Shown: piece by piece, positions 6,173 to 55,164 of the stretch | How the letters are laid out: the number at the start of each line of letters is the position of its first letter | How positions within the stretch are numbered: the first letter of the stretch is position 1 | Assembly: GCA_008015235.1 (NCBI GenBank) | Contig: SSFF01000008.1 | Span: 44,713 to 108,712, forward strand | Direction of reading: 5' to 3' | Length of the DNA stretch: 64,000 nucleotides | Origin: Rhodoferax sp. | GTDB lineage: Bacteria > Pseudomonadota > Gammaproteobacteria > Burkholderiales > Burkholderiaceae_C | Notes under the pieces: model-generated | Databases searched by the model: none | Seen by the model: only the letters and a program-made list of their open reading frames with translations | Told to the model about the DNA's origin: nothing | Program-made: the position numbers and the translations under genes

Positions 6173-6176
6173 AAGC

Positions 6177-14450: not shown

Positions 14451-16996
<2,546 letters not shown>

Positions 16997-17047
16997 GGCG
17001 TGAGGTGGGCTGTTAAAACGTAGATTTTACGGGCTTCGGAGCGCCTT

Positions 17048-17239: not shown

Positions 17240-17242
17240 GGC

Positions 17243-18145: not shown

Positions 18146-18154
18146 CTCCAGCTC

Positions 18155-19567: not shown

Positions 19568-19577
19568 TGTGTGTATC

Positions 19578-20777: not shown

Positions 20778-20807
20778 GGTGCGTCAGTACCAGCCTGCGG
20801 GACGGAA

Positions 20808-21053: not shown

Positions 21054-21133
21054 GATATTCTCCGTGTTGGAAATTATTGGACTTTAACGATACCACACGG
21101 GCACGCGCCCACAAGGTGCTTGGGGTAAGCAGG

Positions 21134-21149
21134 TGCATGAAATCATGCA
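21134..21149. repeat. Palindrome between der and hfq
   Basis: TGCATGAAATCATGCA has 7-base arms around AA. It lies 4 bases past the der stop and about 80 bases before hfq on the same strand. It may be a protein-binding site or a weak transcript hairpin; no U-run follows, so it is not a classical terminator. Confidence 0.4.
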
Positions 21150-21153
21150 AATA

Positions 21154-22506: not shown

Positions 22507-22526
22507 GGAGTGGATTTATTCTTGAG

Positions 22527-23648
22527 TTATTCGGGTTTGAAACCAAACACACCGCCCCGCTGGGTCACCACCACCAAAGTTTGGCCAGCCAGCACCGGTG
22601 TGGAAGCGATAGCGCTGCCATCGGTTGTCATGCGTGTCAGCACCGATCCATCGATTTTCGAGAGCAGATGCACATTGCCGTCGGCATCGCCAATGACCAC
22701 CGAACGCCCCACCATAGCGGGTGCCGTGAGTTGGCGGTAGCGCAACAGATTGGTAGTCCACACACTGTCACCCGACTGCCGCTTGTAGGCACTGATCACA
22801 CCCTGCGCATCGGCTCCAACTACGGTTTCAGAATCACCAGCCAAGCCGGTAAATCCGGCGCTGGCCTTGGACCATTGGAGCATGGGTTTCGCTGTGTCGA
22901 CACAGCCCAATGAGTGCTGGTAGGCACGGACACACAACTGCTGACCATCGCGTGCCACGCCAGCGGGAATTTCAATCAATTTTTCTACCTCGTTGCTACC
23001 ACGGCTGTTTGCAACAGCGATATCCCACCGAAGTGTGCCGTTCAAGGGATTCAGTCCCTGCATACGCCCACCAATGCCAACAGCCAAGGTATCGCCAACA
23101 GCCGTCAGCAATCCAGGCTGGCGCAAGACCAAGGCATCGACGCCACGCTGTTGTTGCCAGAGCATGCGGCCTGTTGCGCCATCAAAAGCCAAAACGGTCC
23201 GGTCGCTACCCAGCACAAACACACGACCTCCAGCCACCAAAGGCGGAGTCACCACGGTGGTACCCAAATCGGCGCGCCACAGTTCCTTACCGGCACCGAA
23301 TACCAGTAAAGCATTGGTTCTGGTGACTACAGCAACGCGTTTCCCATCGAAGCCAACACCGGCCGCCAGGCCTTCTTTCGAGGCGATTCGCCAGACATCC
23401 TGCCCGGTCTTTGCATCCAAAACGGCAATGGTGCCAGCACCCGAAGCGACTGCCAGTTCGCTGCCTGCACTTGCCAGTTGGAGCGGGAATCCCACTTCGC
23501 CGATGTTCACACCCCATGCTTTTCGAACACCAAAGAGTTCAGGATTGGCACCCAGTGCTGCGGGCTTGGGTTTATCCACACTGCTGCAAGCACTGACAAG
23601 CAACAGCAATCCGACCCAACAAGCATTGCGCCAGGACTGGAAATTCAT
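22527..23648 (-). CDS. bamB: Outer-membrane assembly lipoprotein BamB
   Basis: Beta-propeller lipoprotein of the BAM complex that inserts outer-membrane beta-barrel proteins. The start at 23648 (MNFQSWRN) yields 373 residues with a lipoprotein signal peptide ending LLVSAC, which gives the acylated cysteine at about residue 21. The track ORF starts 28 codons upstream, inside the end of yfgM, and would spoil the signal peptide. Repeated PQQ-like blades are visible (for example DAKTGQDVWRI, DGATGRMLWQ, NPLNGTLRWD). BamD of the same complex is at 33.5 kb. Confidence 0.95.
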   Translation of the reverse strand: MNFQSWRNACWVGLLLLVSACSSVDKPKPAALGANPELFGVRKAWGVNIGEVGFPLQLASAGSELAVASGAGTIAVLDAKTGQDVWRIASKEGLAAGVGFDGKRVAVVTRTNALLVFGAGKELWRADLGTTVVTPPLVAGGRVFVLGSDRTVLAFDGATGRMLWQQQRGVDALVLRQPGLLTAVGDTLAVGIGGRMQGLNPLNGTLRWDIAVANSRGSNEVEKLIEIPAGVARDGQQLCVRAYQHSLGCVDTAKPMLQWSKASAGFTGLAGDSETVVGADAQGVISAYKRQSGDSVWTTNLLRYRQLTAPAMVGRSVVIGDADGNVHLLSKIDGSVLTRMTTDGSAIASTPVLAGQTLVVVTQRGGVFGFKPE

Positions 23649-23673
23649 GGCAGCTGATTTAGCGTATTTCAAT

Positions 23674-24354
23674 TCAGTTTCCGGTAGTTGAAGGCGCCAC
23701 GGCAGATTGCTCCATGTCCACGCCCAATGCATTCAGCTTGATACGTACCAGCCTTTGCAAATCAGGCTTCGCAGCAGATCCCGCGTACGCCTTCTTATAA
23801 TTCTCGATGGCCGCAGTCTTGTCGCCTTTGGCAACCAGCACGTCGCCGCGTCGGTCCTGCACAACAGCCAGGTACTCAGGGTCGGCCGGATCGCTTTGCA
23901 AGATCTTGACCGCCTCGTCCAGTTCTTTGGACTCCAGCAACACAGTACTCAAGCGCAGGCGAGCAATGGTAGCAAGCGCAGAGTCCTTGCCTTGCTCACT
24001 GGCCCAGCCCAAAGCGACTTTGGCCTCATCAACTTTATTCGACTGAACTGCAGCCTTGGCCAACAGGAGTGCAGCTTGCTGTGCGTAGATCGTGGAGGGG
24101 TATCGATTCTTCATTTCATCAAAAGCACGTTGCATCTTTGAAATGTCACCCGTTCCAACAGAACGCTCTACCTCGTCGTACAAGGCCGACGCCTGGGCCG
24201 CCTGGTTGCGTTGCCAGTATTGGAATGCATTCCAACTGGCAAAGGACACAAAAATCAACACCAGGCCCCAGGTAATGGCATTGCCATACTGCCCCCAGAA
24301 TGCTTTGAGTTGCTCTAGTTGCTCTTGTTCTTCCAGATCCAAATGGTTAGCCAT
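23674..24354 (-). CDS. yfgM: YfgM-family membrane-anchored TPR protein
   Basis: Protein of 226 residues with a cytoplasmic N-terminus ([17 protein letters not shown]), one membrane segment ([21 protein letters not shown]) and a periplasmic domain of TPR-like helices. YfgM in E. coli works with the SecYEG-associated chaperone PpiD on newly exported proteins. It lies between hisS and bamB exactly as in E. coli. Its start overlaps the hisS 3' end by 8 bases. Function is by family; no catalytic motif is expected. Confidence 0.92.
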
Positions 24355-25672
24355 GATGTGTACGCTTCACTGATAAAAATTGAGCCCATGTTGCGCCGTC
24401 TGCCATTGGGTAACTGGTTTGTGCGCCTGCGCCATCGCGTAAGGCTTTTACTGTCACCTCACCACGCTGTACTTCATCCTGACCAAAAATCAGCGCAAAA
24501 TCAGCACCCGACGCATCGGCACGTTTGAGCTGGGACTTCATGCTGCCCGCTGCACCATCAGCGCTGGCGTGCAATTGCACACTCACACCTTGTTGACGCA
24601 AGGATTCAATGCACTGCATAGCACGTGCCAAATGGCTGGTGTCGGTCACTACGGCATAGGCATTCAACGGCGCCGGAACAATTTCGGGATTGGACTCCTT
24701 AAGCAACTCCAACACCCGTTCAACACCCAGAGCCCAACCGACAGCAGGCGTGGGCTTGCCGCCAATTTGCTCGGTCAGGTAATCGTAACGCCCACCGGCA
24801 CAAATGGTACCTTGGGCACCCAGTCGGGTGGTAACAAACTCGAAGACAGTGAGGTTGTAGTAGTCCATACCACGTACCAGCCGCGGATTGACCTTGAAGG
24901 ACACGCCATTGGCAGTCAGGATGGACTGAACCTGCTGGAAGTGCACCAAGGATTCGGTCGAAAGATAGTCGATAAGACGGGGCGCTTGTTCGATGACCGC
25001 CTGCATCGCCGGATTCTTGCTGTCCAGCAAGCGCAATGGGTTCTTGTGCAGGCGACGCTTGGCCTCTTCGTCCAGCACATCCATGTGCGATTCAAAGTGT
25101 GCAATCAATGCCGCACGGTGCTGCAAGCGCTCAGGAGGCTGTCCCAGGCTGTTGATTTGCAACTCCACGTCTGGTAACTTCAATTCTGCCCACAAGGCAT
25201 GTGCCATCAAAATAAGCTCGGCATCAATCTCGGCACCGGCAAAACCAAAGGCCTCTGCCCCGATCTGGTGAAACTGACGGTAGCGTCCACGCTGGGGCCG
25301 CTCATGGCGGAACATCGGACCCATGTAGTACATCCGCTGCCCGCCAGAATACGTCAATGAATGCTCGACCACGGCACGCACCACACCGGCGGTATTTTCA
25401 GGGCGCAAGGTCAGTGCTTCACCATTGAGCCGATCCTCGAAGCTGTACATCTCTTTTTCGACAATATCCGTGACTTCACCCAAGCCGCGAACGAACAAGG
25501 CCGTGGGTTCCAGAATCGGCGTACGGACATTCTGGTACGCGTAGCAGCGCATCAGGTGGCGTACTTTTTCTTCAAGCCACTCCCAGCGCCAGGAGTCTGC
25601 CGGAAGTATGTCGTTCATGCCTTTGACGGCATTCAAGCGCTCATGGCGCTTGGGTTTATTGGTTTCACTCAT
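24347..25672 (-). CDS. hisS: Histidyl-tRNA synthetase
   Basis: Class II aminoacyl-tRNA synthetase of 441 residues that charges tRNA-His. Motif 2 is [17 protein letters not shown], the histidine-specific peptide is around [13 protein letters not shown], motif 3 is [14 protein letters not shown] and the histidine A region includes [12 protein letters not shown]. The C-terminal anticodon-binding domain runs from about 335. It follows ispG by 6 bases. hisZ at 16 kb is its catalytically inactive paralogue. Confidence 0.97.
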
Positions 25673-25678
25673 AACAGT

Positions 25679-26938
25679 TCAATTCACACCGGCGCGACCA
25701 TATCGGTTCTTGACGTAGGACTCAACGATGGCACGGAATTCGGAAGCAATGTTTTCGCCACGCAAGGTTTGTCGCTTCTCACCGTCGATGTACACAGGCG
25801 CAGCGGGTGCCTCGCCAGTACCAGGTAGGCTGATGCCAATGTCAGCATGCTTGCTTTCGCCTGGGCCATTGACAATGCACCCCATGACGGCAACCTTCAT
25901 GCGCTCGACACCGGGGTACTGCTGCGACCATATGGGCATTTGTTCGCGCAGGAAACCATCTATCTGCTGCGTCAACTCTTGAAAAGTGGTGCTGGTGGTT
26001 CGGCCACAACCTGGGCAGGCCGTAACGCTGGGCGCAAATGCACGCAAGCCCAAGGATTGCAAGATTTCAGAGGCCACCAGCACCTCCTGGGTCCTCGACT
26101 CCCCTGGTGCAGGCGTCAGGGACACGCGGATGGTGTCACCAATGCCTTCCTGCAACAAAACCGACAAAGCGGCTGTCGATGCCACGATGCCCTTCGTCCC
26201 CATGCCGGCTTCGGTCAAACCCAGATGCAAGGGAAAATCACAACGCCGACCGAGCTCGCGGTACACCGTGATCAGATCCTGAACACCACTGACCTTGCAG
26301 GAAAGGGCAATCTGGTGACTCCGCAAACCGATGTCAATGGCTCGCTGTGCAGAATCCAGGGCAGAGGCAATCAAAGCTTCGCACATCAGCTTCTTGGAAT
26401 CCCAGGGCTCTGCGCGCCTTGAGTTTTCATCCATCATGGAAGCTAGTAACTCCTGGTCCAAGCTCCCCCAGTTCACACCAATACGAATGGCCTTGTCATA
26501 CTTGGCAGCCGTCTCGACCATGACAGCAAACTGTCGGTCACGCTTGTCGCCCTTGCCCACATTGCCAGGATTAATCCGGTATTTTCCCAATGCTTGTGCA
26601 CACTCGGGATAATCCGCCAACAACTTGTGCCCGTTGAAGTGGAAGTCGCCAATCAAAGGCGCTTGGATTCCCATCCGGTCAAGCTGGTCGCGAATATGGG
26701 GGACTGCCTGCGCGGCCTCCGGAGTATTGACGGTGATACGCACCATTTCAGATCCGGCCTGGACGAGTTCCTTGACCTGAACAGCCGTTTCGATCACTTG
26801 GGCCGTATCGGTGTTAGTCATGGATTGGACACGTACCGGCGCATCTCCACCCACAGTGACGACATGATCACCGCAACGAACCAAGGACTGCTGCGACCAG
26901 CGACGCACGCTTGTCATACCTGAACCTTCTTCAGACAT
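25679..26938 (-). CDS. ispG: 4-hydroxy-3-methylbut-2-enyl diphosphate synthase
   Basis: Iron-sulfur enzyme of the MEP isoprenoid pathway that converts MEcPP to HMBPP, using electrons from flavodoxin or ferredoxin. Cluster cysteines are in TACPGCGRT and [11 protein letters not shown], which also carries the fourth-ligand/glutamate region. The N-terminal TIM barrel includes [15 protein letters not shown]. Length is 419. The ATG at 26938 overlaps the rodZ stop as TAATG, supporting coupled translation; a second ATG seven codons in is possible. ispD and ispF lie at 55-57 kb. Confidence 0.96.
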
Positions 26939-27921
26939 TACTTGACCTCAAACCGCGCTACGTTGTCCCGGGCGAAGGCAGAAAAGTCAAAGGGCTTGCC
27001 CCGAACCTCAACATCTACCGAATCCGCACGCCCGAGAATCACCACTAAGGGTAGCACCCCGCCGCATTCCACACGCTCACCGGCCGCGATATTTCGACTC
27101 AGACGAACCTCTCCTTTGGCATCCACGACCTTCACCCAGACCGATTGCTGTCGCGCTTTGAAACTCATGACGATGTCTGAACCCGGAGCACTCACCGCCG
27201 CCGCAGGCAAGGCGGACTTGGCCTCCACAGAGACAGTGCCTGCGGTGGCCATTGGAACAGTTGCTAGTACCGGAGGCTTTTCCGCCGTGAGAACAGCGCT
27301 GCTTGCTGCAGGGGCAAGCAGCGAAGCGGTGACATTTCCTGGAGCCATCTCAGATTTTGCGTCCGTCGCGGCGGGTGCAGGAATCACAACAGGCGCCATT
27401 GCTTGGGGCGCGACCACTTCTTCGGTACTTGCCATGCCTGGAGTTCCAGGCTCCTGTACGTCTTGCTGTCCCCAGAAACCAGTGGCCGCAATCACCACCG
27501 CACCAACACATAACGCCATCACCAGCATCACCGCAGGCTGGGTGAGGATTTCATTCACGGTTTTCGACTGCCCTGCAACCCGGGTTGTAAACGGTGCATT
27601 GATGCCATTGTCATCCACGTGCAATTCACGAACCACTGTTTGCGGCAAGGCTGCCAAGACAGGAGCAGGATCAATCTTCAGGGTACGGCAAACACTGGAT
27701 GCCAGTGCCCTGGTGAACACCAGATCATGGGTCCCCAGCAACTGGTCAGCCTCCAGTGCCTCTAGTTTTTTTACCGGAATTTTGATGGCAACAGCCAATG
27801 CCGCTACATGGAGCCCCGCTTTTTCGCGCGCAGCACGCAGCATGGAGCCAGCGGTATCTGGGCTGGCTCGCTCCAAGACTGTCGATTGCTGTTCGTCCAT
27901 CGGCAATTTTGTCTCACTCAT
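26938..27921 (-). CDS. rodZ: Cytoskeletal protein RodZ
   Basis: Bitopic membrane protein that links MreB filaments to the cell-wall elongation machinery. It has an N-terminal Xre-like helix-turn-helix (about residues 25-95, [16 protein letters not shown]), a single membrane segment near residue 135 ([21 protein letters not shown]), a long Ala/Pro/Val-rich periplasmic linker and a C-terminal DUF4115 beta domain ([13 protein letters not shown]). Length is 327. Its first 8 bases overlap pilF, and its stop overlaps the ispG start. The pilF-rodZ-ispG-hisS order is widely conserved. Confidence 0.93.
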
Positions 27922-28738
27922 TGAATGCGCCTCGCTCTAACCAGCCCAACTCACGCGACTGGGGAAATCTTTTACGCAATTGGGATGCCAGTTGGCTCTG
28001 TGCCTCGACATTGCCCAGCTTCTGCTCGACCTTGATACCCAGCCACAAGGTTTCAGAATTGGCCAATGCTCCGTTGTTCAATCGTCGAATATAAAACTGG
28101 GCACGGATCACCTCTCCACGCTCATACAAAAGCTTGGACAGGTTGTACGCAGTGATGGGATTTCCAGCATCCAACTCGTACGAGCGCAGATAGCTCGCTT
28201 CGGCCGCTTCTTTGCGCCCCACACTGAGCTCGCACCCAGCCTGGGCCATATGGGTCTTGGCACGTTCGGTGTAAGTGGGATCTGCAATGGCCAGCTTGAA
28301 CATTTGGATCCCCTCATTGGCACGCCCAAGCTGGCACAACAGCAAGCCATAGTTGTGCTGAACACCGGGTGCCGACGGTTTCAGCGCCAAGGCTTTACGA
28401 AAGCTTTCTTCCGCCAGTTGTGGATTATTCAGGCGCTGGTACACCAATCCACGCAAGTTGTAGGCGTCAAAGTAGGTAGGATCGGCAGCAATAGCTTGCT
28501 TGAGTTCGTCCAACGCAACAGTTGTCTGTCCATTACTGAAGTAGCCGGTCGCCAGTTCCAGGCGAATCTTGGCGCGGCGACGCGCATCGCTTTCGTCAGA
28601 AACCGTCATAACATCGTTGCTCATGGCGGTTTCCGACGATTTTGGTGCCTGGGAGCAGGCAGGCAAAGCGGACACAACACTCACCAGGGTAAACAACCAC
28701 AATAACGACCCAATCCAACGCGCTGAAATCATGTGCAT
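27914..28738 (-). CDS. pilF: Type IV pilus assembly TPR lipoprotein PilF/PilW
   Basis: Pilotin-type protein of 274 residues that helps assemble the PilQ secretin in the outer membrane. The signal peptide (LLWLFTLVSVVSALPAC) ends in a probable lipobox cysteine, although proline before Ala-Cys is unusual. TPR units follow from about residue 60, for example AYNLRGLVYQRLNNPQLAEESF and HNYGLLLCQLGRANEG. It lies 3 bases after the rlmN stop. A second ATG two codons in is possible. Naming differs between species (pilF or pilW). Confidence 0.88.
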   Translation of the reverse strand: MHMISARWIGSLLWLFTLVSVVSALPACSQAPKSSETAMSNDVMTVSDESDARRRAKIRLELATGYFSNGQTTVALDELKQAIAADPTYFDAYNLRGLVYQRLNNPQLAEESFRKALALKPSAPGVQHNYGLLLCQLGRANEGIQMFKLAIADPTYTERAKTHMAQAGCELSVGRKEAAEASYLRSYELDAGNPITAYNLSKLLYERGEVIRAQFYIRRLNNGALANSETLWLGIKVEQKLGNVEAQSQLASQLRKRFPQSRELGWLERGAFNE

Positions 28739-28741
28739 TGC

Positions 28742-29890
28742 CTATCCTCTTATTCCAGAGTCGGAAATAACCGGGATCACCCGGCGACCTTGATCACGCA
28801 ATTTTTCCATCCGATTTTTCGCATCGGTGCGATCCATCACATCGCCAGCCAACTGACCGCATGCCGCATCGATATCGTCACCACGGGTCTTTCGAACGGT
28901 CGTCACAATGGATGCAGCGTTCAACCGCGCAGCGAAAGCTTGAACAGCCGCATGGGGAGAACGCCGCAGGCCTGAGGCCGGAAACGGATTGAATGGAATC
29001 AGATTGAATTTGCACCAGGAGGTGCCGCGTCCATCTTGCTGTACCAAATGGATCAGCTGTTGTGCATGTTCCTGCGTGTCATTGACGCCATCGAGCATGC
29101 AGTACTCGAACGTCACAAAATCCCGCGGCGCATGTGTGAGGTATTGGTGGCAGGCATGCATCAATTCCGACAGCGGGTACTTCTTATTCAATGGCACAAG
29201 GTGATCCCGCAAAGCATCGTTCGGCGCATGCAGGGACACAGCCAACGCAACCGGACAATCCACACCCAGACGCTCCATCATGGGTACAACACCGGAGGTT
29301 GAAACCGTCACACGCCTGCGCGACAATCCGTACCCATGGTCATCGAGCATGGTACGCAATGCGGGAATCAACGCGGCATAGTTCTGCAGCGGCTCCCCCA
29401 TGCCCATCATGACGACATTCGAGATGACACGCTCCGATGTGCCCAGCTTCTTCCTTAGAAAGTGCTCGGCAAACCAGAGCTGGGCAATGATTTCCGCTGT
29501 GGAAAGGTTACGACTGAAGCCCTGGTGTCCGGTCGAGCAGAAGCGGCAACCGACAGCACAACCTGCCTGTGACGAAACACACAAGGTTCCACGGTCTGTT
29601 TCGGGAATGAAGACTGCCTCCACGGCATTGCCGGCACCGACATCAAACAACCACTTGATAGTCCCATCCTGGGACTCATGCTGGCTGATGACCGTGAGCG
29701 CAGTGACGCTGCAGCTCACTTTAATTTTTTCGCGCAAGGACTTCGCGAGATCGGTCATCTCGTCGAAATTAGCTACGCCTTTTTGGTGAATCCAGCGAAA
29801 CAACTGGGTCGCTCGAAAGCGTTTCTCACCCAGCCGCTCGCAAAAAACGGCCAACCCATCCAGATCAAAATCGAGTAGGTTAGTCGTCAT
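28742..29890 (-). CDS. rlmN: 23S rRNA/tRNA adenine-C2 methyltransferase RlmN
   Basis: Radical-SAM enzyme that makes 2-methyladenosine at A2503 of 23S rRNA and A37 of some tRNAs. The 4Fe-4S cluster motif CAVGCRFC places cysteines at 111, 115 and 118. The methyl-carrying C-terminal cysteine is in [16 protein letters not shown] and the SLHAPND segment are family hallmarks. Length (382) matches the E. coli enzyme (384). It starts 7 bases after the ndk stop and precedes pilF, a common arrangement. Confidence 0.97.
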
Positions 29891-29897
29891 CGCATGA

Positions 29898-30323
29898 TTA
29901 ACGCGAGTAAACGTTCATGCCGGGGAAGAAGAAAGCAACTTCCACCGCTGCAGTTTCAGCAGCATCCGAGCCGTGAACAGCGTTGGCATCGATGCTGTCG
30001 GCGAAGTCGGCACGGATGGTGCCAGGAGCAGCCTTCTTGGGGTCGGTTGCACCCATCAAGTCACGGTTCTTCAAAATGGCATTTTCACCTTCCAGGGCCT
30101 GCACCATGACGGGACCAGAGATCATGAAATCCACCAGATCCTTGAAGAAGGGGCGTGCCTTGTGCACAGCGTAGAAGGCCTCAGCTTCGCCACGCGACAG
30201 GTGCATCATGCGAGCAGCAACAACCTTCAGGCCTGCAGCTTCAAAGCGGGCGTAGATTTGGCCGATGACGTTCTTGGCAACTGCGTCGGGCTTGATGATG
30301 GAGAGGGTGCGTTCGATAGCCAT
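29898..30323 (-). CDS. ndk: Nucleoside diphosphate kinase
   Basis: Transfers the gamma phosphate of ATP to nucleoside diphosphates through a phosphohistidine. All 141 residues match the bacterial family: [11 protein letters not shown] at the start and the active-site NAVHGSD with His117. The ATG has AGGA seven or eight bases upstream. The leader between rluB and ndk contains an intrinsic-terminator-like hairpin and possible repeat remnants, so ndk probably has its own promoter. On the minus strand TGCTAGAAT (30383-30391) resembles an extended -10 element, but it lies upstream of that hairpin. Confidence 0.98.
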
Positions 30324-30351
30324 GGTGTATCCTATTTTTAGCTAAGTGAGA

Positions 30352-30372
30352 GAAAAGCACGCCCACGCGTGC
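30352..30372 (-). terminator. Possible intrinsic terminator between rluB and ndk
   Basis: On the minus strand, GCACGC - GTGG - GCGTGC is followed at once by TTTTCTCTC. The short GC-rich stem plus T-run is the usual Rho-independent pattern. A second inverted repeat (AAGCCGTTGAT / ATCAACGGCTT, 30374-30413) overlaps the rluB stop just upstream. Together they would end rluB transcription before ndk. Confidence 0.55.
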
Positions 30373-30403
30373 AAAGCCGTTGATTCTAGCATTGCATACA
30401 GTA

Positions 30404-31651
30404 TCAACGGCTTCGTCCATTGCGCCGTGCGGCACCACTACCACCCGGGCCGCGCCTGGACTTGTCTTGCCGCTGGCGTGTCAAACTGTCGGAGCCAATG
30501 TAGCCCAGTGAAGTCCGCATCGGGTCCGGCTGGACATTGCCGTTTTTTGTGCCTCCGGAAGACTTTGCACGGCCACCGGAAGATTTCTTGAACTCGGATC
30601 GGCCCGGCCTGCCGGCCGAACGCTGATTGCCTGAGCCCGCATGTTGGACTGCTCCTGGCCCCACTTCGCGGCCCGAGTCTGCCACGCGGGTTAGGGCACG
30701 GATATCTCCCTCATCCAGTTCCATCCATGCACCGCGTTGCAAGCCACGCGGCAAGACCATAGCGCCATAACGGATACGGATCAAACGGCTCACTGCATGC
30801 CCCACCGACTCCAGCATGCGCCGAACCTCGCGGTTGCGCCCTTCCGCAATGACTACGCGGTACCAGCAGTTAGCACCCTCCCCGCCTCCGTCCTCAATGG
30901 ACTTGAACTGGGCCAAACCATCTTCCAATTGCACCCCGTCCAAAAGGCGCTGCTTCTCATCGGAAGAGAGTGCACCCAGACAACGGACAGCGTATTCGCG
31001 CTCGAGGCCAAAACGGGGATGCATCAGCTTGTTTGCCAATTCCCCCGATGTAGTGAACAGCAACAAACCCTCGGTATTCAAATCAAGGCGACCGACTGCT
31101 TGCCACTTCCCCTGGTAGACCTTGGGCAGGCGACGAAAAACGGTCGGCCGGTTTTGTGGGTCGTCATGGGTCACAACCTCGCCGACTGGCTTGTGGTAGG
31201 CCAACACCCGTGCCGGTGGCGGTGCAATACGCACTTTTATGGGTTTGCCATTGACCTTGATGCTGTCGCCAAACTGAATGCGTTGACCAATGTGGGCCGG
31301 CTCGTTGTTGACTGAAATCCGGCCTTCCAGGATCAACTGCTCCATTTCCAGTCGCGACCCCATACCCGCCTGCGCAAGCACCTTGTGCAATTTGGGCGTT
31401 TCGGCCTGCGGCGTGAGCACCCGTTTGGACGGAAGGTCCACAACTGCCCCGTCTTCGGCATCAAACTGGCCCGACAGTACATCTTGAAAAACCATTTTGA
31501 CTTCGGGAGGCAATGCAGCCTTCGCCAAAGGCTGGGGGTCGCGTGCGCCAAGAATGTCATTCAACGGAGCTGCGTCGGCACTGACTGCTTGCTTGGAGCC
31601 ATGCTCATGGGCATCGCCACCGGGTATTTCATTCATCATGTTTACTTTCAT
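30404..31651 (-). CDS. rluB: 23S rRNA pseudouridine synthase RluB
   Basis: Pseudouridine synthase of the RsuA group, predicted to modify U2605 of 23S rRNA. An S4-like RNA-binding domain ([30 protein letters not shown]) precedes the catalytic domain, with the nucleophilic aspartate in [13 protein letters not shown]. The extra N-terminus (~85 residues) and the C-terminal ~90 residues, rich in Gly, Ser, Arg and Lys, look disordered; such basic tails are common in RluB. Three ATGs (31651, 31639, 31636) are possible starts and all overlap the 3' end of scpB. The RluB-scpB neighbourhood is typical. Confidence 0.92.
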
Positions 31652-32339
31652 TCAATGCGCCCGTGGCATCTTCTGTGGAATTTATTTCTTCCGAACGCAA
31701 GGCACCGCCAGCATCATCCAAAGGCATTACCAGCTGGCCATCCTCAGCCATACCCGCCACAGTAACAGGTTGATCTGCTTCTCCAACCAACAATTCACCC
31801 AATGCCTCCATGCCTTGTGTCGGCTGCGCAGGATGCTCCAGCAATGGGAGTGCATCCAGTGACGCCAAGCCAAGATCGTCGAGAAACTGCTTGGTCGTGG
31901 CGTACAAGGCCGGCCGACCCGGTGCATCCCGGTGCCCAATGACCTCCACCCAGCCGCGATCTTCCAGTTGTTTAATCAAAAGCGAACTGATCGTGACTCC
32001 GCGAATATCTTCCATGTCTCCACGCGTCACTGGCTGCCGGTAGGCAATGATGGCCAAGGTTTCGAGCGTAGCTCGGGTATAGCGCGGGGGTTTTTCCGGA
32101 TTCAGACGGTCAAGGTAGATCCTCATCTCGGGTCGACTCTGAAACCGCCAGCCCGAAGCAACACACACCAGCTCCACGCCTTTGTGCGTCCACTCCAGTT
32201 GTAACTCTTGTAGCAGCTCCTTGAGCGTATCGACCCCAATTTCATCGGCGAACAAGGTGCGCATCTCTCGCAGTTGCAAAGGCTGCTGTGCACAAATCAA
32301 AGCAGTTTCAAGGACCTGCTTGGCATCGAGCAAATTCAT
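31629..32339 (-). CDS. scpB: Segregation and condensation protein B
   Basis: Winged-helix partner of SMC and ScpA in the bacterial condensin. The 236-residue protein contains the family signature region [20 protein letters not shown] and the [18 protein letters not shown] wing. The C-terminal ~60 residues are acidic and poorly conserved. Its last 23 bases overlap rluB. scpA is not adjacent, unlike in Firmicutes; smc itself is at the left edge of this window. The ATG at 32339 gives the usual start ([15 protein letters not shown]). Confidence 0.95.
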
Positions 32340-32441
32340 AGATAGTTGTAGCGCCGCACAGAAAGTAATGGTCGGCCGAAATGGGGTACGTCAGAAGCAC
32401 ATACTCAGCGGCGCAACTGCGGCACCGCAAACCCTGGCAAT

Positions 32442-33473
32442 TCACCCAAGCTCAGGGATTGCCGATTCATTGTAGCGCAGGCCCAGCGCATGCAACTCCG
32501 CTTCAAAATCAGGGGGCGGCGGAGCCATGAACGTCAGAGGACGTTTCAGAGTCGGATGAATGAACGTCAGTTTGACAGCATGCAAGGCTTGCCTGCGAAT
32601 CACTTGCCCCGATACGCCACCGTACACGGCGTCTGCAACCAAGGGCATGCGCATGGAAGCCATGTGCACCCGAATCTGGTGGGTGCGCCCAGTGTAGAGC
32701 CGGCAGTGGACAAGCACGGCATCACCACATTGGTCCAGACACAAAAAATCAGTCTTTGCGGGTTTTCCTGCGTGCTGCCCGAGATCGACCACAGCCATGC
32801 GCAATCGGTTCGAGGGATCGCGCCCTATGGGACGCTCTACCGTTTTCGTGGCTTTGCCATACGACCAGGAGCCCTTCGCGATGGCCAAGTATTGGCGCCC
32901 CACCTCCCGGTTTGCAATAGCCACCACCAGGGCATCCATCACACTGCGGCTCTTGGCCACCACCATCAGTCCACTGGTGTCCTTGTCCAGCCGGTGAACG
33001 ATACCGGCGCGGGGAACCTCGGAAAAACAGGTGGCATACGCCAGAAGACCGTTGAGCAAGGTACCAGTCCAGTTGCCGGGTGCCGGGTGTACGACCAAAC
33101 CGGCAGGTTTGTGAATAACAAGCAGGTCAGCATCTTCGTAGACCACGTTCAGTGGCATGGCCTCGGGCAAAAAAGCCTTGCTCTGCTCGGTTGCTCGCAA
33201 TTCAATGTGCACCGTATCCCCGATGCGAAGCTTTGTTGCAGGCTTGTCGATCGGACGGGCATTGACATTCACAGCCCCCGCAGCAATCAACTGCTGCAGA
33301 TAGCTGCGTGAGAACCCTTGAATTGACAGTGCCAGAACCTTGTCCAGACGCTGTCCATGGCCGATTTCACCCACCAGGATTTGACGGCAATCAATATCAT
33401 CCAGACCCAATTCGGCATCGGCCGGATCTGACTCCAGGGGGGGCGTCGATATAATGAAATCAGTATCTTTCAA
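32442..33473 (-). CDS. rluD: 23S rRNA pseudouridine synthase RluD
   Basis: RluD makes pseudouridines at 1911, 1915 and 1917 in helix 69 of 23S rRNA. An S4 domain (GQRLDKVLALSIQGFSRSYLQQLIAAGAVNVN) is followed by the catalytic HRLDKDTSGLMVVAK motif with the essential aspartate. The ORF opens with TTG at 33473, which is 14 bases from bamD and has no ribosome binding site; a GTG at 33374 would remove 33 poorly conserved residues and leave room for the TATAAT promoter of bamD, so the start is uncertain. rluD diverging from bamD is conserved in proteobacteria. Confidence 0.94.
   Translation of the reverse strand: MKDTDFIISTPPLESDPADAELGLDDIDCRQILVGEIGHGQRLDKVLALSIQGFSRSYLQQLIAAGAVNVNARPIDKPATKLRIGDTVHIELRATEQSKAFLPEAMPLNVVYEDADLLVIHKPAGLVVHPAPGNWTGTLLNGLLAYATCFSEVPRAGIVHRLDKDTSGLMVVAKSRSVMDALVVAIANREVGRQYLAIAKGSWSYGKATKTVERPIGRDPSNRLRMAVVDLGQHAGKPAKTDFLCLDQCGDAVLVHCRLYTGRTHQIRVHMASMRMPLVADAVYGGVSGQVIRRQALHAVKLTFIHPTLKRPLTFMAPPPPDFEAELHALGLRYNESAIPELG
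33428..33455 (+). promoter_or_regulatory. Predicted sigma-70 promoter of bamD
   Basis: CTGACT, 16 bases, then a perfect TATAAT (33450-33455). Transcription would start near 33462, giving a ~26-base leader that contains AAGGA before the bamD ATG. The promoter lies inside the annotated 5' end of the divergent rluD, or in the gap if rluD starts further in. Confidence 0.6.
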
Positions 33474-33487
33474 GGAAAACTTTCACA

Positions 33488-34294
33488 ATGCAGCGTGCCA
33501 AATTATCGATTGTCTTTGCGTCCCTGCTGGCACTTGCAATGGCGACCCTTGGCGGATGCTCGTCCCAGCCAGTGGACAAGACAGCCGGAATGAGTCCGGC
33601 CACGCTGTATTCCGAAGCCAAGGATGAAATGGCCAACGGTCAGTGGGAAAAGGCCATTCCGCTGCTGGAGAAGCTGGAAGCCCGCGCCGCAGGCACCCCC
33701 TTGGCGCAACAGGCCCAGGTAGACAAGGCCTATGCCCACTACAAGGCCCAGGAACCGGCCCAGGCACTGGCCACGCTGGAGCGTTTCATGCGCCTGCACC
33801 CAGCCAGCCCGGCCATGGACTACGCTCTGTACCTCAAAGCCATCATCAACTTCAATGACGACTTGGGTATGTTTTCGGGACTGACCCGACAGGACTTGTC
33901 AGAGCGCGATCAGAAAGCTGCCAAGGAGTCTTTCGAGGCATTCAAGGAATTGGCCACACGCTTCCCAGACTCGAAGTACGCCCCCGATGCCCGCCAGCGC
34001 ATGGCCTACATCGTGAACTCGCTGGCCCAGTACGAGGTGCACGTGGCGCGGTACTACTACAAGCGTGGCGCCTACCTGGCCGCAGTGAACCGCGCCCAGG
34101 CCACGGTTGCGGAGTACCGTGATGTGCCAGCCTTGGAAGAGGCTCTGTTCATCATCTACAAAAGCTACGATGCCTTGGGTTTGACCCAGTTGCGTGATGA
34201 CGCCCTGCGCGTGCTGGAAAAGAACTATCCCCAGTCAGAGTTCCTGATCAAAGGCGAACGCACCAAGAATGATCCGTGGTGGAAAGTGTGGTGA
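33488..34294 (+). CDS. bamD: Outer-membrane assembly lipoprotein BamD
   Basis: Essential lipoprotein of the BAM complex (formerly ComL/YfiO) that contacts BamA and incoming barrel proteins. The signal peptide ends MATLGGCSS with the acylated cysteine near residue 24. The 268 residues contain five TPR-like helical pairs (for example SEAKDEMANGQWEKAIPLLEKLEAR and HYKAQEPAQALATLERFMRLHP). YAPDARQRMAYIVNSLAQYEVHVARYYYKRGAYLAAVNRA is highly typical of BamD. It has its own promoter upstream. It ends 7 bases from the convergent DUF465 gene. Confidence 0.96.
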   Translation: MQRAKLSIVFASLLALAMATLGGCSSQPVDKTAGMSPATLYSEAKDEMANGQWEKAIPLLEKLEARAAGTPLAQQAQVDKAYAHYKAQEPAQALATLERFMRLHPASPAMDYALYLKAIINFNDDLGMFSGLTRQDLSERDQKAAKESFEAFKELATRFPDSKYAPDARQRMAYIVNSLAQYEVHVARYYYKRGAYLAAVNRAQATVAEYRDVPALEEALFIIYKSYDALGLTQLRDDALRVLEKNYPQSEFLIKGERTKNDPWWKVW

Positions 34295-34301
34295 CCCAAA
34301 G

Positions 34302-34514
34302 CTAGGCTCGGTCATCGGGAATCAGCGTGCTCTCCAGCCTGGCGATCTTGTCGCGCAGGGCCAAACGCTTTTTCTTGAGTCTACGCAAGGCCAGTTCATT
34401 GAGTGGGGATGCTTGCGAAGCAGCATCAATCATCGCATTGAGGTCACCATGCTCGACGCGCAATGCAATCAGTTCCCGTGCGGGAGAGTCCAAGTCCGGA
34501 TCAATCGTAAACAA
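34302..34514 (-). CDS. YdcH/DUF465 small coiled-coil protein
   Basis: Short cytoplasmic protein of up to 70 residues with no signal peptide. The C-terminal LRRLKKKRLALRDKIARLES stretch is the Lys/Arg helix that marks DUF465/YdcH proteins. The function of the family is unknown. The ORF begins with TTG at 34514 and a weak GGGA lies upstream, so the start is uncertain. It is convergent with bamD and divergent from the phosphatase gene. Confidence 0.75.
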   Translation of the reverse strand: MFTIDPDLDSPARELIALRVEHGDLNAMIDAASQASPLNELALRRLKKKRLALRDKIARLESTLIPDDRA

Positions 34515-34608
34515 ACGTCAATTCCCACAAAATGAGGCCAAGGGCAGGCTGTAGATGGTCTGATAATACGCGTAACATTTGATCCCTACCAGCAGGCACA
34601 TATCCAGC

Positions 34609-35367
34609 ATGGCTACAGGTTACCGTCTCACCGCATCGACCGGCATACACAAGGGCGACCGCGAATACCAGCAAGACCAGGTTGCCCTGCTCAAGCATGC
34701 GCGGGCCAATGGCTGCATTCTCGGCATCGTGGCCGATGGCATGGGCGGACGCAGCGGCGGGCGCAAGGCCTCAGACCAGGTCATGATGACCGCCAAGCAG
34801 CTGTTCGAGCGCTACGACCCGCAGACAGACGACGCGGGCTCCATGCTCCAGCAGATCGTTGACGAAGCGCACATCGTTATCAAACTGACTGCCATCTCAG
34901 CGGAGGAAGAGCCGCACAGCACCATGGCGGCGTTTCTGATCAACCCGGCCGGAGACTGCCACTGGGCCCACACCGGGGATTCGCGGATTTACCATTTCTT
35001 CGGCAACCGCTTCGTCAAGCGCACCATGGACCACTCCTACGTGCAAACACTGGTCAACAAGGGCGAGTTGACCGAAGAACAGGCGCAGTCGCACCCCAAG
35101 TCCAACATCTTGATGGGCTGCCTGGGCACGGACACTGACCCACCGGTGGACCAGCACCTGATTCCAAAATTGCGGCCTGGGGATGTTCTGATGGCCTGCA
35201 GCGACGGTGTCTGGCACTACTTCACCACCGAAGAGCTGGGCTCCATCTTGTCGTCCCTGTCGGCCCGGGAAGCCACCGAATTCCTGATCGAGAAGGCACG
35301 CTCCCGCGCACGCGGGGGCGGCGATAACCTCTCACTGGTAATCGTCAAGCTCGAAAATCTGGACTGA
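34609..35367 (+). CDS. PP2C-family Ser/Thr protein phosphatase
   Basis: Metal-dependent phosphatase of 252 residues. Motifs in order are the GDREYQQDQ arginine/aspartate region, VADGMGGRSGG (metal-binding Asp), AHTGDSRIY, MACSDGVW and GGDNLSLVIV. All metal-ligand aspartates appear present, so it should be active. The track ORF adds 10 residues; the ATG at 34609 opens MATGYRLTASTGIHKGDRE, as family members do. It is soluble. Bacterial PP2C enzymes reverse the action of Hanks-type kinases; the only such kinase in this window is at 50-52 kb, so a functional pairing is possible but unproven. Confidence 0.9.
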   Translation: MATGYRLTASTGIHKGDREYQQDQVALLKHARANGCILGIVADGMGGRSGGRKASDQVMMTAKQLFERYDPQTDDAGSMLQQIVDEAHIVIKLTAISAEEEPHSTMAAFLINPAGDCHWAHTGDSRIYHFFGNRFVKRTMDHSYVQTLVNKGELTEEQAQSHPKSNILMGCLGTDTDPPVDQHLIPKLRPGDVLMACSDGVWHYFTTEELGSILSSLSAREATEFLIEKARSRARGGGDNLSLVIVKLENLD

Positions 35368-35385
35368 GCGCCTTGGCTGGCGCCT

Positions 35386-36486
35386 TCAGGCCAGCGTGGT
35401 ATCTACCAATCGATGTTCCAGCGCCAGAAATTCCTTGGACTGCATTTCGCGCAAGCGTGACACCGTGCGTGGGAATTCGTGCGACATCGGGCCCTCGGTA
35501 TAAAGCCCTTCGGGCTCGACAGCAGCCGACATTACCAGCTTGACCCGGCGGTCGTACAACACGTCCACCAACCAGGTAAATCGGCGTGCCTCTGAGGCCA
35601 TGCGCACCGGCATGTGTGGCACACCGCTGAGAAACACGGTATGGAAACGGGAGGCAATTTCCAGGTAGTCGTTCTGGGAGCGAGGACCTCCACAGAGGGT
35701 CTTGAAATCAAACCAGACCAAGCCTCCGGCGCGACGCAGGGCGCGAATCTGACGTGCCTCGATGTGCAGGATGGGATCTTCGTCATGGGTTTCGGCAATC
35801 GCATCAAACGAGGCCTTGAGCGCGGCATCGGCCTCCGCACCCAAAGGTGTGTGGTAGAGCTTGACCTGCTCCATGGTGCGTCGGCGGTAGTCGGTGCCGT
35901 TGTCCACATTGATGACTTCCAGCTTCTCATTGAGCAGATCAATGGCAGGCAGGATGCGATCACGGTGCAGACCATCCGGGTACAGGCCATCGGGCTGGAA
36001 GTTGGAGGTGGTGACAAAGCCCACGCCATTAGCAAACAAGGCTGCCAACAGCCGGTGCAGGATCATCGCGTCGGTGATGTCCGCCACGTGGAATTCGTCG
36101 AAGCAGATGAGCTTGAAGCGCTTGGCCATGCGCTGGGCCAACACATCGAGTGGGTTTTGCGTGCCCTGCAGCTCCACCATCTGCCGGTGCACCTCGCGCA
36201 TGAACTCGTGGAAATGCAGCCGGGTCTTGCGCTTGAGAGGAACCGCGTTGAAAAAGCAGTCCATCAGGAAGCTCTTGCCGCGCCCCACCCCGCCGTACAT
36301 GTAGACCCCCCGGGGAATCTCCGGGCGGTTGATGAGCTTCTTGAGCGCATTGGAACGCTGTGCCTTGTAGTGTCCCCACTCCTCGGCACAGCGGTCCAGG
36401 GCCCGCACCGCGGCCAGTTGGGCCGGGTCGGATTGGAACCCGCGTTGCACGAGCTCGGCCTCATAAATTTGCGATACCGTCGCCAT
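35386..36486 (-). CDS. zapE: Cell-division ATPase ZapE (AFG1-like)
   Basis: AFG1/LACE1-family P-loop ATPase of 366 residues, in E. coli associated with the FtsZ ring and cell division under stress. Walker A is GGVGRGKSF (residues 65-73), Walker B is LICFDEFHVADITD and the sensor region is VTTSNFQPDGLYPDGLHRDR. The leader upstream of the ATG is entirely a dispersed repeat, leaving no clear ribosome binding site. It is convergent with the phosphatase gene, 18 bases apart. lpdA lies upstream on the same strand. Confidence 0.94.
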   Translation of the reverse strand: MATVSQIYEAELVQRGFQSDPAQLAAVRALDRCAEEWGHYKAQRSNALKKLINRPEIPRGVYMYGGVGRGKSFLMDCFFNAVPLKRKTRLHFHEFMREVHRQMVELQGTQNPLDVLAQRMAKRFKLICFDEFHVADITDAMILHRLLAALFANGVGFVTTSNFQPDGLYPDGLHRDRILPAIDLLNEKLEVINVDNGTDYRRRTMEQVKLYHTPLGAEADAALKASFDAIAETHDEDPILHIEARQIRALRRAGGLVWFDFKTLCGGPRSQNDYLEIASRFHTVFLSGVPHMPVRMASEARRFTWLVDVLYDRRVKLVMSAAVEPEGLYTEGPMSHEFPRTVSRLREMQSKEFLALEHRLVDTTLA

Positions 36487-49971: not shown

Positions 49972-52464
49972 CTACTGCGACTGCTTGAAAGCCATGACAG
50001 CCTGATTGCGCAGGGTACGCAGCAGGGAAAGCTCTTTCTCATCCAATGTCAGGCTGTCGCGCTGGATCTTGTCGGCGTAGATCAGGCCAAACGGCGCGCC
50101 CTTGATCTGCAATGGCAACAGCAAAAAAGCCGGAGCATTCAGGCCAGTGCGGTACCAACTAGGCAAGCGCTGTTCAATGCGTGATTCACTGGCATCGCTG
50201 ATCATGGTGTCCGCACCCTTGTTGCAGACGATGGCGAACAGGTCGGGCGTCGTGGCCTTGAGATGGGTACGGAAGGTCTTCACATGCGCATCGACACCGG
50301 TGCCAAGGCCAAACCGGCCGATCATCATTTCGGTCTTGGCATCGCGCATGCAAAAGATGATGCGATCCAGCTCCATGGCACGGAACATGGTCTCCAGGAT
50401 CATGCGCAGCACATCCGTGAGCTTGAAGTCCTCCACCATGGCATTGGTAATGTCCTGGATGCCGGCAGCCAGGGTGTCCCCCATGGGCACACGCACCGTC
50501 ACGGCCCCCGTGGCCGCACCATGGCTCTCCACTACGTCCAGTGGCGCAGCAGCCGTGTGCGTAGCCTGCAATTCCAATCCAGCCAGGGCGCCATGCGTGG
50601 GCGGCCCATTGTGCCCATGGGCCTGGACATGCGCCTCCTCGGAAGGGGCCTTGAGCAATTTCGCAGCGGCAGACTGTGGCGCCACCTTGATTTCCATGGC
50701 CACCGCCAGTTCGACCAACTTCTTGCGCGCCTTGACCGTGGCGACCTGCACGTCCTTGGACGACAAGCCCATGGCACGCACGTACTTGGCCGTGGTCTGC
50801 TCGACCATGCGGTCCACGTCCTTCGGGTCGGTGTGCAACAGCACATCGGCGATGTCATTGGCTGCCAAGGCGACCCAGCGCAGACGTTCTGCAGGGTCCT
50901 GGGGAGTGGTCTGCGGCGGCGTCCCCTGGGGTTTGCTCATGCAGCGCACCATGGGTGCTGGCAGCCCCCAGGCCTTGGCAATGCCTTGGCCCAGCTCTTC
51001 AAAACTCATGCCCAGCACACTCAGTGCTGCAGCATGCTCGGTCATCGGCTCGCGGGTGTTCTGCACCAAGGTGCGCACGGCCCGCGCCTCTTCCGGAAAG
51101 TAGTACTGCACCAGCAGCCGTCCAAGGTTCTGGAACATCGCACCAATGAAGGTTTCCTCACTCTCCTTCACCGAAGGGCAGAGCTCGGCACCAATGGAGC
51201 CAGCCATGAGCGAGCGCAGGAACTCTTCCTTGAGCTGCGCCGCATGGGCCTTGTCGGCCATGTGCTCCAGCAGCACCAGGCTCAAGGCCATGTTGCGGAT
51301 GCCGTTGAAACCCACGAGGGAAACGGCCCGCGACACCGTGCTGATGCTGCCGCCCCTGGCGAAATGGGCGCTGTTGACCAGACGCAAGAGCTTGTTTGTC
51401 AGCGCCACGTCCTTCAGGATTTCGTTGGTGACCGAATTGATGCTCTCCTTGTCGGAGTTCGCCATGCTCTGGATGCGCACGATCGACTCCGAAAGCGCCG
51501 GGAAGTCACTCTTGTGGCGCATGCGCCGCAGCAGGAAGTCCAGCGTGCCGCGGTTGGTGGCATTTCCCGCCATCGACTCAGCCTTGGGCACATCGGTACC
51601 GGACTTGGACCAGGACTCCAGTTCCGCCATGAACGCCCTGGCAGTCGGAAAGCGCTGACGCGGGTCCTTGGCAAGGGCCCGGGTCACGATCGAACGCAGC
51701 CGCTCGTCCACGTCCACCGGCGCATCGGCCGGAAACATCAGCTGTTCGTGCAATACCCGGTAGATGGCACGGTACGGGTCCTTCTCGGCAATCATGGGGC
51801 GGCCCAGCAACATCTCGGCCAGGACCATGCCCACCGCGAAAATGTCCATGGAGGGCGCAGGCGATGCCCCCCCGGCCGCTTCCGGCGACAAATACCCGGG
51901 GGTGCCACCGCTGGGCGTATCGGGTTCGGTACTGCGCGCATCCTTGATACGCGCAGCAATGCCGAAGTCCATGACCCGGGCGCGACCCGCCTTGTCTACC
52001 AGGATGTTGGAAGGTTTCAGGTCCCGGTGCACCACGCCGGCCGTGTGGGCGGCCGCCAAGGCGTCGAGAACATCCAGCACCAAGGCCACTGCAGCCGGCC
52101 CTGGCATGGCCCCGCGCTCCTGCAGCAGGGCTGCCAGCGTTTGGCCATCGACATACTCAAAGACCAGATAGGGCTGCCGTTCCTGGATGTCGGCCTCATA
52201 GACCGGAACAATGTTGGGATGGGTGACACGCCCGGCGCTGCGCGCTTCCTGCAGCCAATGGGCCACCGCCGTTTCGTCCGAGCTTTCACCCAGGCGCATG
52301 ACCTTGATGGCCACTTCGCGTTCAAGGCGGGGATCAAACCCCAGGTACACGATGGACTGCGCACCTTGCCCCAGGCGCTTACGCAACTCAAACCGTCCCA
52401 ACATCGAAGCACGCGCCCCGTTGGGATTGGGACGACTATTGGAGAACTGCGGTGCCTCGGCCAT
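49972..52464 (-). CDS. Hanks-type Ser/Thr protein kinase fused to HDOD and GAF domains
   Basis: Cytoplasmic protein of 830 residues with three modules. Residues ~24-280 are a protein kinase with the glycine loop LGQGAQSIVY, VAIK lysine K54, HRDLKPSN (D148), DFG (D166) and the SPE-type APE motif; all catalytic residues are present. Residues ~318-510 form an HDOD domain (IRIQSMANS, LRLVNSAHFAR, MFQNLGRLLVQYYF) in which metal-binding HD residues are absent, as is normal for HDOD. A linker rich in Ala and His (600-650) leads to a GAF domain (~670-827, FKLTDVLRMILETMFRAMELDRIIFCMRD). No membrane segment is seen. It stands alone on its strand. Substrate and ligand are unknown. Confidence 0.93.
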   Translation of the reverse strand: MAEAPQFSNSRPNPNGARASMLGRFELRKRLGQGAQSIVYLGFDPRLEREVAIKVMRLGESSDETAVAHWLQEARSAGRVTHPNIVPVYEADIQERQPYLVFEYVDGQTLAALLQERGAMPGPAAVALVLDVLDALAAAHTAGVVHRDLKPSNILVDKAGRARVMDFGIAARIKDARSTEPDTPSGGTPGYLSPEAAGGASPAPSMDIFAVGMVLAEMLLGRPMIAEKDPYRAIYRVLHEQLMFPADAPVDVDERLRSIVTRALAKDPRQRFPTARAFMAELESWSKSGTDVPKAESMAGNATNRGTLDFLLRRMRHKSDFPALSESIVRIQSMANSDKESINSVTNEILKDVALTNKLLRLVNSAHFARGGSISTVSRAVSLVGFNGIRNMALSLVLLEHMADKAHAAQLKEEFLRSLMAGSIGAELCPSVKESEETFIGAMFQNLGRLLVQYYFPEEARAVRTLVQNTREPMTEHAAALSVLGMSFEELGQGIAKAWGLPAPMVRCMSKPQGTPPQTTPQDPAERLRWVALAANDIADVLLHTDPKDVDRMVEQTTAKYVRAMGLSSKDVQVATVKARKKLVELAVAMEIKVAPQSAAAKLLKAPSEEAHVQAHGHNGPPTHGALAGLELQATHTAAAPLDVVESHGAATGAVTVRVPMGDTLAAGIQDITNAMVEDFKLTDVLRMILETMFRAMELDRIIFCMRDAKTEMMIGRFGLGTGVDAHVKTFRTHLKATTPDLFAIVCNKGADTMISDASESRIEQRLPSWYRTGLNAPAFLLLPLQIKGAPFGLIYADKIQRDSLTLDEKELSLLRTLRNQAVMAFKQSQ

Positions 52465-53008: not shown

Positions 53009-53746
53009 ATGCAAACGCCCAGCAAACGCCCCAGCCGCATTCTCGTCGTCGACGATGACACCCGAATCCGTGAATTGCTCAAACGTTTTCTGGAACAGGA
53101 GGGCTTCGAAGTCCTGACAGCCGAAGACGGCCGCGCCCTTAACAGGGTTATGCAGCGAGAAACCGTCGACCTGCTGGTGCTCGATGTCATGATGCCCGGA
53201 GAAGACGGCTTGTCCATCTGCCGTCGCCTTCGCGCCGCGAATGAGCAGGTGCCGATCATCATGCTCACTGCCAAGGGGGAAGACGTGGACCGCATCGTAG
53301 GCCTGGAGATCGGTGCCGACGATTACATGGGCAAGCCATTCAATCCGCGCGAGTTGCTCGCACGAATCCATGCGGTGCTGCGCCGTCGCCCGGCCAGTGA
53401 AGTGCCTGGAGCACCTTCCAGCGAACCCGAAAACGTGCGTTTCGGTCCCTTCACCCTGGATCTGGCCGCACGCACCCTCCACAAGGATGAGCAGGCCCTG
53501 AGCCTGACCACGGGTGAATTTGCCATGCTCAAGACCCTGGTGCGTCACCCGCGGATTGCCCTTTCTCGCGAAAAACTGGCCCAGTTGTCGCGCGGGCGCG
53601 GATTCGAGCCGTTCGACCGCAGCCTGGATGTGCAGATTTCACGCCTGCGCAAGATGATCGAAGAGGATCCGGGCAATCCGCGCTACATACAGACCGTCTG
53701 GGGCGTGGGCTATGTTTTCGTACCCGATGGCGGCACGGCCGGCTGA
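53009..53746 (+). CDS. ompR: OmpR-family response regulator
   Basis: Two-domain transcription factor of 245 residues. The receiver has acidic residues D15/D16, phospho-acceptor D59 in LLVLDVMMPGEDG, T87 and K109. The C-terminal winged helix (~140-240) includes LSLTTGEFAMLKTLVRHP, and the end IQTVWGVGYVFVPDG is characteristic of OmpR. It is followed 15 bases later by an EnvZ-like kinase gene that is frameshifted. The start ATG at 53009 has no strong ribosome binding site. Confidence 0.93.
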   Translation: MQTPSKRPSRILVVDDDTRIRELLKRFLEQEGFEVLTAEDGRALNRVMQRETVDLLVLDVMMPGEDGLSICRRLRAANEQVPIIMLTAKGEDVDRIVGLEIGADDYMGKPFNPRELLARIHAVLRRRPASEVPGAPSSEPENVRFGPFTLDLAARTLHKDEQALSLTTGEFAMLKTLVRHPRIALSREKLAQLSRGRGFEPFDRSLDVQISRLRKMIEEDPGNPRYIQTVWGVGYVFVPDGGTAG

Positions 53747-53761
53747 GGCCCCACATACCCC

Positions 53762-55164
53762 GTGAAGTTCCGCACCGAGTCGTTCAACGTCGATACCGAG
53801 GCCACGCCGCTGGATGCCCCGCGGGCGGTCAGCGCCCTGCTGCCCAAGGCACCCATGGCAGGCATGAGCCTGTTCTGGCGCACCTTCATGCTGCTGGCCC
53901 TGCTGCTGCTGGGCAGCATCCTGGCTTGGCTGCAGACCTGGCGCTCGCTGGAGCTGGAACCCCGGGCCCGACAGACCGCCCAGCAACTGGCGTCCCAGGT
54001 CAATCTGAGCCGCGCCGCTCTCGTGCATGCCGATGCGATTGCCCGGGTGTCGCTGCTCAAGACCATGACCCAGGAAGAAGGCCTGCGCATTGTGGTGCGC
54101 GAAGCCGATGACCGGATCGAACCCTTTGAGAATGACGCCCTGGGGCGCGCCATCCATGCCGAACTGGTGAAACGTCTGGGGCGCAACACCCTGACTGCCA
54201 GCCGCGTCAACGACCAAGATGGCTTGTGGGTAGGCTTTGACATCGAAGGGGACGACTACTGGCTGCTGGCCGACGAAGCACGCTTCGACACTGCTGGCGG
54301 AAAGATATGGACCATCTGGTTGGTAGTGGCCGCGGTGTTGTCCCTGGCCGGTGCCGCAGCCATTGCCAGCCTTATCAACCGGCCACTCAAACAGCTGTCC
54401 TTTGCGGCCAGCCGGGTACGCGAGGGTGACTTCGACGCCAGCAAACTCGACGAAGAGGTCTACACCAGCGAGATCCGCGAGGTCAACATGGGATTCAACC
54501 GCATGGCCCAGCAATTGGCCAAGGTCGAACAGGAGCGTGCCGTCATGCTGGCCGGCATTTCGCACGACCTGCGCACCCCGCTGGCACGCTTGCGCCTCGA
54601 AACCGAACTCAGCGTAGCTGACCTCGACGCCCGCGCCCACATGGCCGCTGACATCGCCCAGCTCGACGCCGTCATCGACAAGTTCCTGGACTACGCCCGT
54701 CCTGGCAAAACCGTGCTGGAAGGCGTTGACGTCGATGACGTGGTCTACAACGCTGTGTTCCCCTTTGAAAAGCAAGACAACGTACGGGTACAGGTTCGCG
54801 CCTGAAGGTGCTGGCCGACCCGGTGGAGTTGGGCCGTGTCCTGTCCAATCTGCTGGAAAACGCCTGCCGCTACGGCAAGACCCCTACCACCGGCCTTGCC
54901 GTCATCGACATCACGGCGCGGGAAGAAGACGAGTGGGTGCACATCAAGGTGCGCGACCACGGCCAGGGCGTTGCCCCCGAACAACTGGCCCACCTGACAC
55001 AACCCTTCTTCCGGGGCCAGACCGCACGCACGGCAGCCAATGGCGCTGGCTTGGGGCTTGCCATTGTCGAAAAAACCGTGCAACGCATGGGCGGCCAGCT
55101 GTGGCTGGCGAATTCCAGTACCGGAGGTCTGGCGGTGCGCATCCGCCTCAAACGCGCTACCTAG
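53762..55164 (+). pseudogene. envZ: EnvZ-like sensor histidine kinase, split by a one-base frameshift
   Basis: Two overlapping-frame ORFs together encode one OmpR-partner kinase. The first (53762-54805, GTG start) has membrane segments near residues 41-60 and 182-205, a periplasmic domain between them, a HAMP region and the phospho-acceptor H268 in ISHDLRTPLARLR. It ends at TGA after VQVRA. The second frame resumes at CTG 54802 with LKVLADPVELGRVLSNLLENACRYG (N box), DHGQGV and GAGLGLAIVEK (ATP-binding G boxes). One missing base near 54797-54803 explains the break. If real, the kinase lacks its ATPase domain. It could instead be a sequencing error; no slippery heptamer is present. Confidence 0.88.

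Follow-up and report, generated by a model that had tools for sequence, protein, structure and literature searches.

A risS sensor kinase gene lacking ten bases lies beside an intact risA in a Rhodoferax genome

Analyzing a 64,000-nucleotide stretch of contig SSFF01000008.1 from Rhodoferax sp. (hereafter the window), we found an intact OmpR-type response regulator gene followed by a sensor kinase gene whose two halves lie in different reading frames. Domain content and gene order identify the locus as risA-risS, the ompR-envZ pair of Burkholderiales, and it comprises the following features.

53009..53746, + strand: risA, OmpR-type response regulator of 245 aa, intact (PF00072 and PF00486)
53762..54805, + strand: 5' part of risS, ending in a premature TGA at 54803-54805 where homologues continue without a stop
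53966..54283, + strand: periplasmic sensor domain of RisS (PF16524, RisS_PPD)
54362..54517, + strand: HAMP domain (PF00672)
54542..54703, + strand: DHp (HisKA) domain (PF00512)
54799..54805, + strand: deletion junction, 5 nt where homologues have 15 nt (from the spacing in 113 homologous loci)
54817..55155, + strand: core of the HATPase_c (CA) domain, out of frame with the 5' part (PF02518, 91.9 bits)

The risA product scores 408 bits against the OmpR equivalog NF007005 (cut-off 331) and, as read in the sequence, keeps the acidic pocket D15/D16, the phospho-acceptor D59, T87, and K109. Directly downstream of risA/ompR, after 15 nt, begins the 5' part of risS (ORF A, 53762-54805; 347 aa with a GTG start), which encodes, in order, TM1, the periplasmic domain, TM2, HAMP, DHp, and the first helix and strand of the CA fold. 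The periplasmic domain matches RisS_PPD at 129 bits against a cut-off of 27.5, and the HAMP domain shares one frame with the HisKA phospho-acceptor, whose His codon (54563-54565) lies within the SHDLRTP motif of DHp. For an intact homologue, structural matches include the solved RisS domain 3te8 for the periplasmic part and the EnvZ DHp-CA structures 4cti and 4kp4. The first-pass annotation of this DNA had named the kinase envZ; it is indeed of EnvZ type, and the RisS_PPD and 3te8 matches refine its identity to the Burkholderiales RisS subtype. Intact Burkholderiales RisS/EnvZ proteins have the same domain order as the window's copy and up to ~75% identity to it over the 5' part. The window's copy differs in missing ten bases and in stopping short of the ATP-binding core. 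The HATPase_c and HisKA domains are not in one frame here, with TGA 54803-54805 between them. Beyond that stop, the rest of the kinase continues in a second frame (ORF B), which is open over 54769-55164, has intact N, G1, F, and G2 boxes, and offers GTG 54808 as its first ATG/GTG/TTG in a start-codon scan. The upstream stop, the open frame to 55164 with its N, G1, and G2 boxes, and a base, 54802, common to both frames had all been described before, and all of them hold.

Elsewhere in the window, positions 49972-52464 (- strand) encode an 830-aa protein that combines Ser/Thr protein kinase, HDOD, and GAF domains in one chain. Positions 16001-36000 have a G+C content of ~56%, compared to 62% elsewhere in the window, yet the genes tested there have housekeeping roles (HflX- and Der-like GTPases, histidyl-tRNA synthetase, RodZ, and pseudouridine synthases) and are not those of a mobile island.

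The length of the junction between the two risS halves sets the window apart from its relatives. Spacing was taken as the distance from ORF A residue 346 to the first B-frame residue, with both halves placed by tblastn, in the 113 homologous loci where it was measurable, which span ~54% to 75% identity and count at least one genome twice. It is exactly 15 nt in every one of these loci, where the intervening codons form a genuine five-residue loop (e.g., LEDNL or VAIDT), and 5 nt solely in the window's own copies. On this comparison, risS in the window is missing ten bases relative to its homologues. The first-pass annotation had ascribed the break to a single missing C and proposed a comparison with close relatives; that comparison, with its invariant spacing, rules out a one-base loss and reveals a ten-base gap instead, the loop of the relatives being three residues longer than a one-base loss would imply. 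Frame arithmetic could not have told the two apart, because -10 equals -1 modulo 3. Reads carrying an extra C, which had been put forward as the sign of an assembly error, would not fit either, because the lesion is a ten-base deletion. The annotation had placed the break between the acceptor and ATPase domains, which is not exactly where it falls. HisKA ends at ORF A residue 314 and the frame runs on for 33 residues, through the helix and beta strand that open the CA fold. The break therefore sits within the catalytic fold, at the loop preceding the strand leading to the N box. A two-step history of nine bases and one base is less economical than a single loss, because the length of this loop never varies among homologues. 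A search for direct repeats flanking the junction, which would point to slippage, found no repeat pair in the sequence that is left.

Surveying the family for risS by its periplasmic domain, we detected the gene in 367 of 401 genomes. An open frame of at least 442 aa is present in all of the approximately 150 family genomes listed, except the window (352) and one other genome (G381), whose short risS is a copy cut by a contig edge. Taken with the 15-nt spacing, these open frames mean that the disruption, as in a pseudogene, is not seen in homologues. Of the 103 genomes in the genus, 55 carry risS; the window's copy alone is truncated away from a contig edge, the copy of G463 being truncated at one. 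The nearest risS copies are only ~75% identical to that of the window, and a search of its own genome for a second intact risS returned none, with the next-best matches at ~35% over part of the length.

The regulator gene follows the same pattern, risA being present in 56 of the same 103 genomes. Both genes are absent from the other 47, mostly small genomes of 2-3 Mb. Since risA and risS are almost always present or absent together in the genus, the pair is gained or lost jointly, and it is rare for an intact risA to adjoin a broken risS. We rejected G485, a 2.5-Mb genome of the same genus, as a case of risA without risS, since its risS is present (L165, G485:C19:9000-15789) and lacks the periplasmic domain. 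At about 5600-6610 of that locus, TM1, a short loop, and TM2 are followed by HAMP, DHp, and CA in one frame.

Neither half of the window's risS has further stops, and domain and catalytic motifs are kept in both. The deletion looks recent, because motifs and frames are clean on both sides of it. Branch lengths were fitted on one topology for the genus sample, and the window's share on its terminal branch is 0.046 for risS-A, 0.109 for risS-B, 0.108 for mfd, 0.046 for ispD, and 0.162 for risA. The risS-A share is no larger than that of other species, and the risS-B share is about that of mfd. An excess is seen for risA, the fastest-evolving copy of its kind in the sample. A long-dead pseudogene was rejected on these grounds: both frames and their motifs are clean, and the risS branch shares are not clearly inflated.

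No RisA in the genus sample is more divergent than that of the window (53009-53746), whose mean identity is 78.8% (next, 84.2%) and whose receiver domain carries many conservative changes. It departs from 12 of 170 near-invariant columns, and the next-highest copy from 4. This pattern is suggestive of relaxed selection on RisA, which we do not claim, because the species is a fairly long branch in mfd too. Fast RisA evolution might mean that change in the pair began earlier than so clean a lesion implies.

Compared by position, each of the 12 OmpR-type regulators of the genome has an adjoining HATPase_c gene, and just two such kinases were found broken, that of RisA among them. The other (L186, G000:C42:11800-15200, at 1096-2532) is a CreC-like sensor kinase beside an intact CreB-like regulator. 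An in-frame TAG interrupts it at 2191-2193, within the loop that precedes the N box and near-homologous to the risS break; the frame goes on past the TAG through an intact N box and beyond, with an ATG 12 nt later, and the relatives of this gene in the genus are uninterrupted. That the two breaks nearly coincide in the structure may be chance, with a probability that we put at around the one-per-cent level for a randomly placed break.

The organism could hold an intact risS, with ten bases lost in assembly or consensus. The genome is a draft in 48 contigs, and an otherwise healthy operon with both frames perfectly preserved is what such an artefact would leave. However, ten missing bases in a stretch free of repeats and homopolymers are atypical of short-read or long-read error, and a coding-frame scan of the 64 kb, coarser than a gene-by-gene inspection, revealed no other evident split gene. 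Moreover, the CreC-like kinase is interrupted by a substitution-type stop, and one artefact does not explain both broken kinases, because their lesions differ in type. An assembly error is unlikely on this evidence, and a genuine mutation is likelier than the first-pass annotation could know, because a gap of ten bases resembles a base-call error less than a gap of one does.

Two other readings take the broken genes as functional. RisS and the CreC-like kinase are cut in the same loop with membrane sensor, HAMP, and DHp intact, as would be found if the lineage were turning EnvZ/CreC-type kinases into signal-controlled phosphatases or into in-trans pairs with a re-initiated ATPase chain, a conversion that we regard as improbable. 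The split-kinase or phosphatase reading is kept in play for the sole reason that the two genes are interrupted at near-identical positions. Improbable too is a functional split kinase in risS itself, whose 3' part would be re-initiated after the stop, at GTG 54808 following TGA 54803, with the pieces working in trans. Separated EnvZ domains are reported to do so in vitro (Park et al. 1998, as cited in PMC6023141), as do the pieces of CheA3/CheA4 of Rhodobacter (PMC3591291). In these systems, acceptor and ATPase are on separate chains, and the same would be true of the window if ORF B were made. The stop and the possible GTG start are 2 nt apart, ORF B matches the complete Pfam HATPase_c profile, and the CreC-like kinase has its own stop at a near-homologous position with an ATG 12 nt on. 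However, Shine-Dalgarno pairing before GTG 54808 is weak (-3.2 kcal/mol), and the two-ORF layout was seen in no relative examined. The cut also falls inside the catalytic fold, so that the putative ORF B product would miss the helix and strand with which the fold begins, in contrast to the engineered EnvZ A/B domains; nor does the window share a conserved two-gene layout with two-domain EnvZ or CheA3/CheA4. Programmed -1 frameshifting that joins the frames into a full-length kinase is scarcely credible, since the frames do overlap in a -1 relation but the junction GTT CGC GCC TGA contains no slippery heptamer, the surrounding RNA shows no stronger folding than shuffled versions (z = +0.66) and so offers no stable structure, and all relatives are single-frame and need no shift.

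We favor a real disruption of risS that is probably genuine and recent. Quite probably, a recent ten-base deletion ends RisS before its ATP-binding core, so that kinase activity would be lost and RisA would be left unphosphorylated or served by another kinase. The deletion, located in the loop that follows the catalytic domain's first beta strand, shifted the frame onto a new TGA. The truncated RisS would keep the membrane sensor, HAMP, and the phospho-acceptor helices, and from this domain content autophosphorylation should be impossible. Loss of the kinase beside an intact OmpR-type regulator, as the first-pass annotation proposed, remains the best reading of the locus, although the missing C that was to explain it does not stand.

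The disruption is of a known kind, a fairly ordinary gene loss with a close precedent in the whooping-cough bacterium. As described in PMC5020355, PMC12805831, and PMC8489951, risS of Bordetella pertussis is a pseudogene inactivated by a frameshift, and RisA function there requires RisK, a kinase encoded together with a different regulator; phosphorylation of RisA by RisK is reported in PMC5020355 and PMC12805831. The same pair thus shows a frameshifted kinase beside an intact regulator in both organisms, but the B. pertussis loss is independent and in another family, and the window's lesion is a ten-base deletion. In the window's genome, RisA should function without phosphorylation or receive its phosphate from another kinase, as it does from RisK in B. 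pertussis. Cross-phosphorylation had been suggested from the window alone; it has a direct precedent in RisA/RisK (PMC5020355, PMC12805831), and in this genome we only infer it. Among 30 HATPase_c loci examined from the genome, the kinase L153 has the most RisS-like H-box, with 14 of 22 residues shared, and would be the first candidate, as a lead, for cross-talk to RisA. This gene (G000:C36, ~73.9 kb; 1498-2835, - strand) has the H-box LLAISHELRSPLTRARLNTELL and adjoins its own OmpR-type regulator.

The remnant of RisS may have a role of its own. The DHp domains of EnvZ and HK853 are described as phosphatases that stay active when the catalytic domain is absent (Zhu et al. 2000, as cited in PMC3510030 and PMC5727384). 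Since the H-D-L-R-T motif is kept and isolated DHp is known to have this activity, it is possible that the RisS remnant acts as a phosphatase only, with the leftover DHp still binding and dephosphorylating RisA~P.

Because risA and risS are otherwise nearly always present or absent together, a pair with one gene broken looks like a step on the way to losing both. If the kinase loss is true, it would add a second natural case, this one outside Bordetella, in which RisS is lost while RisA is kept, and would provide a test case for whether an OmpR-type regulator without its own kinase is silent, is cross-phosphorylated, or is kept in check by the phosphatase activity of a kinase remnant.
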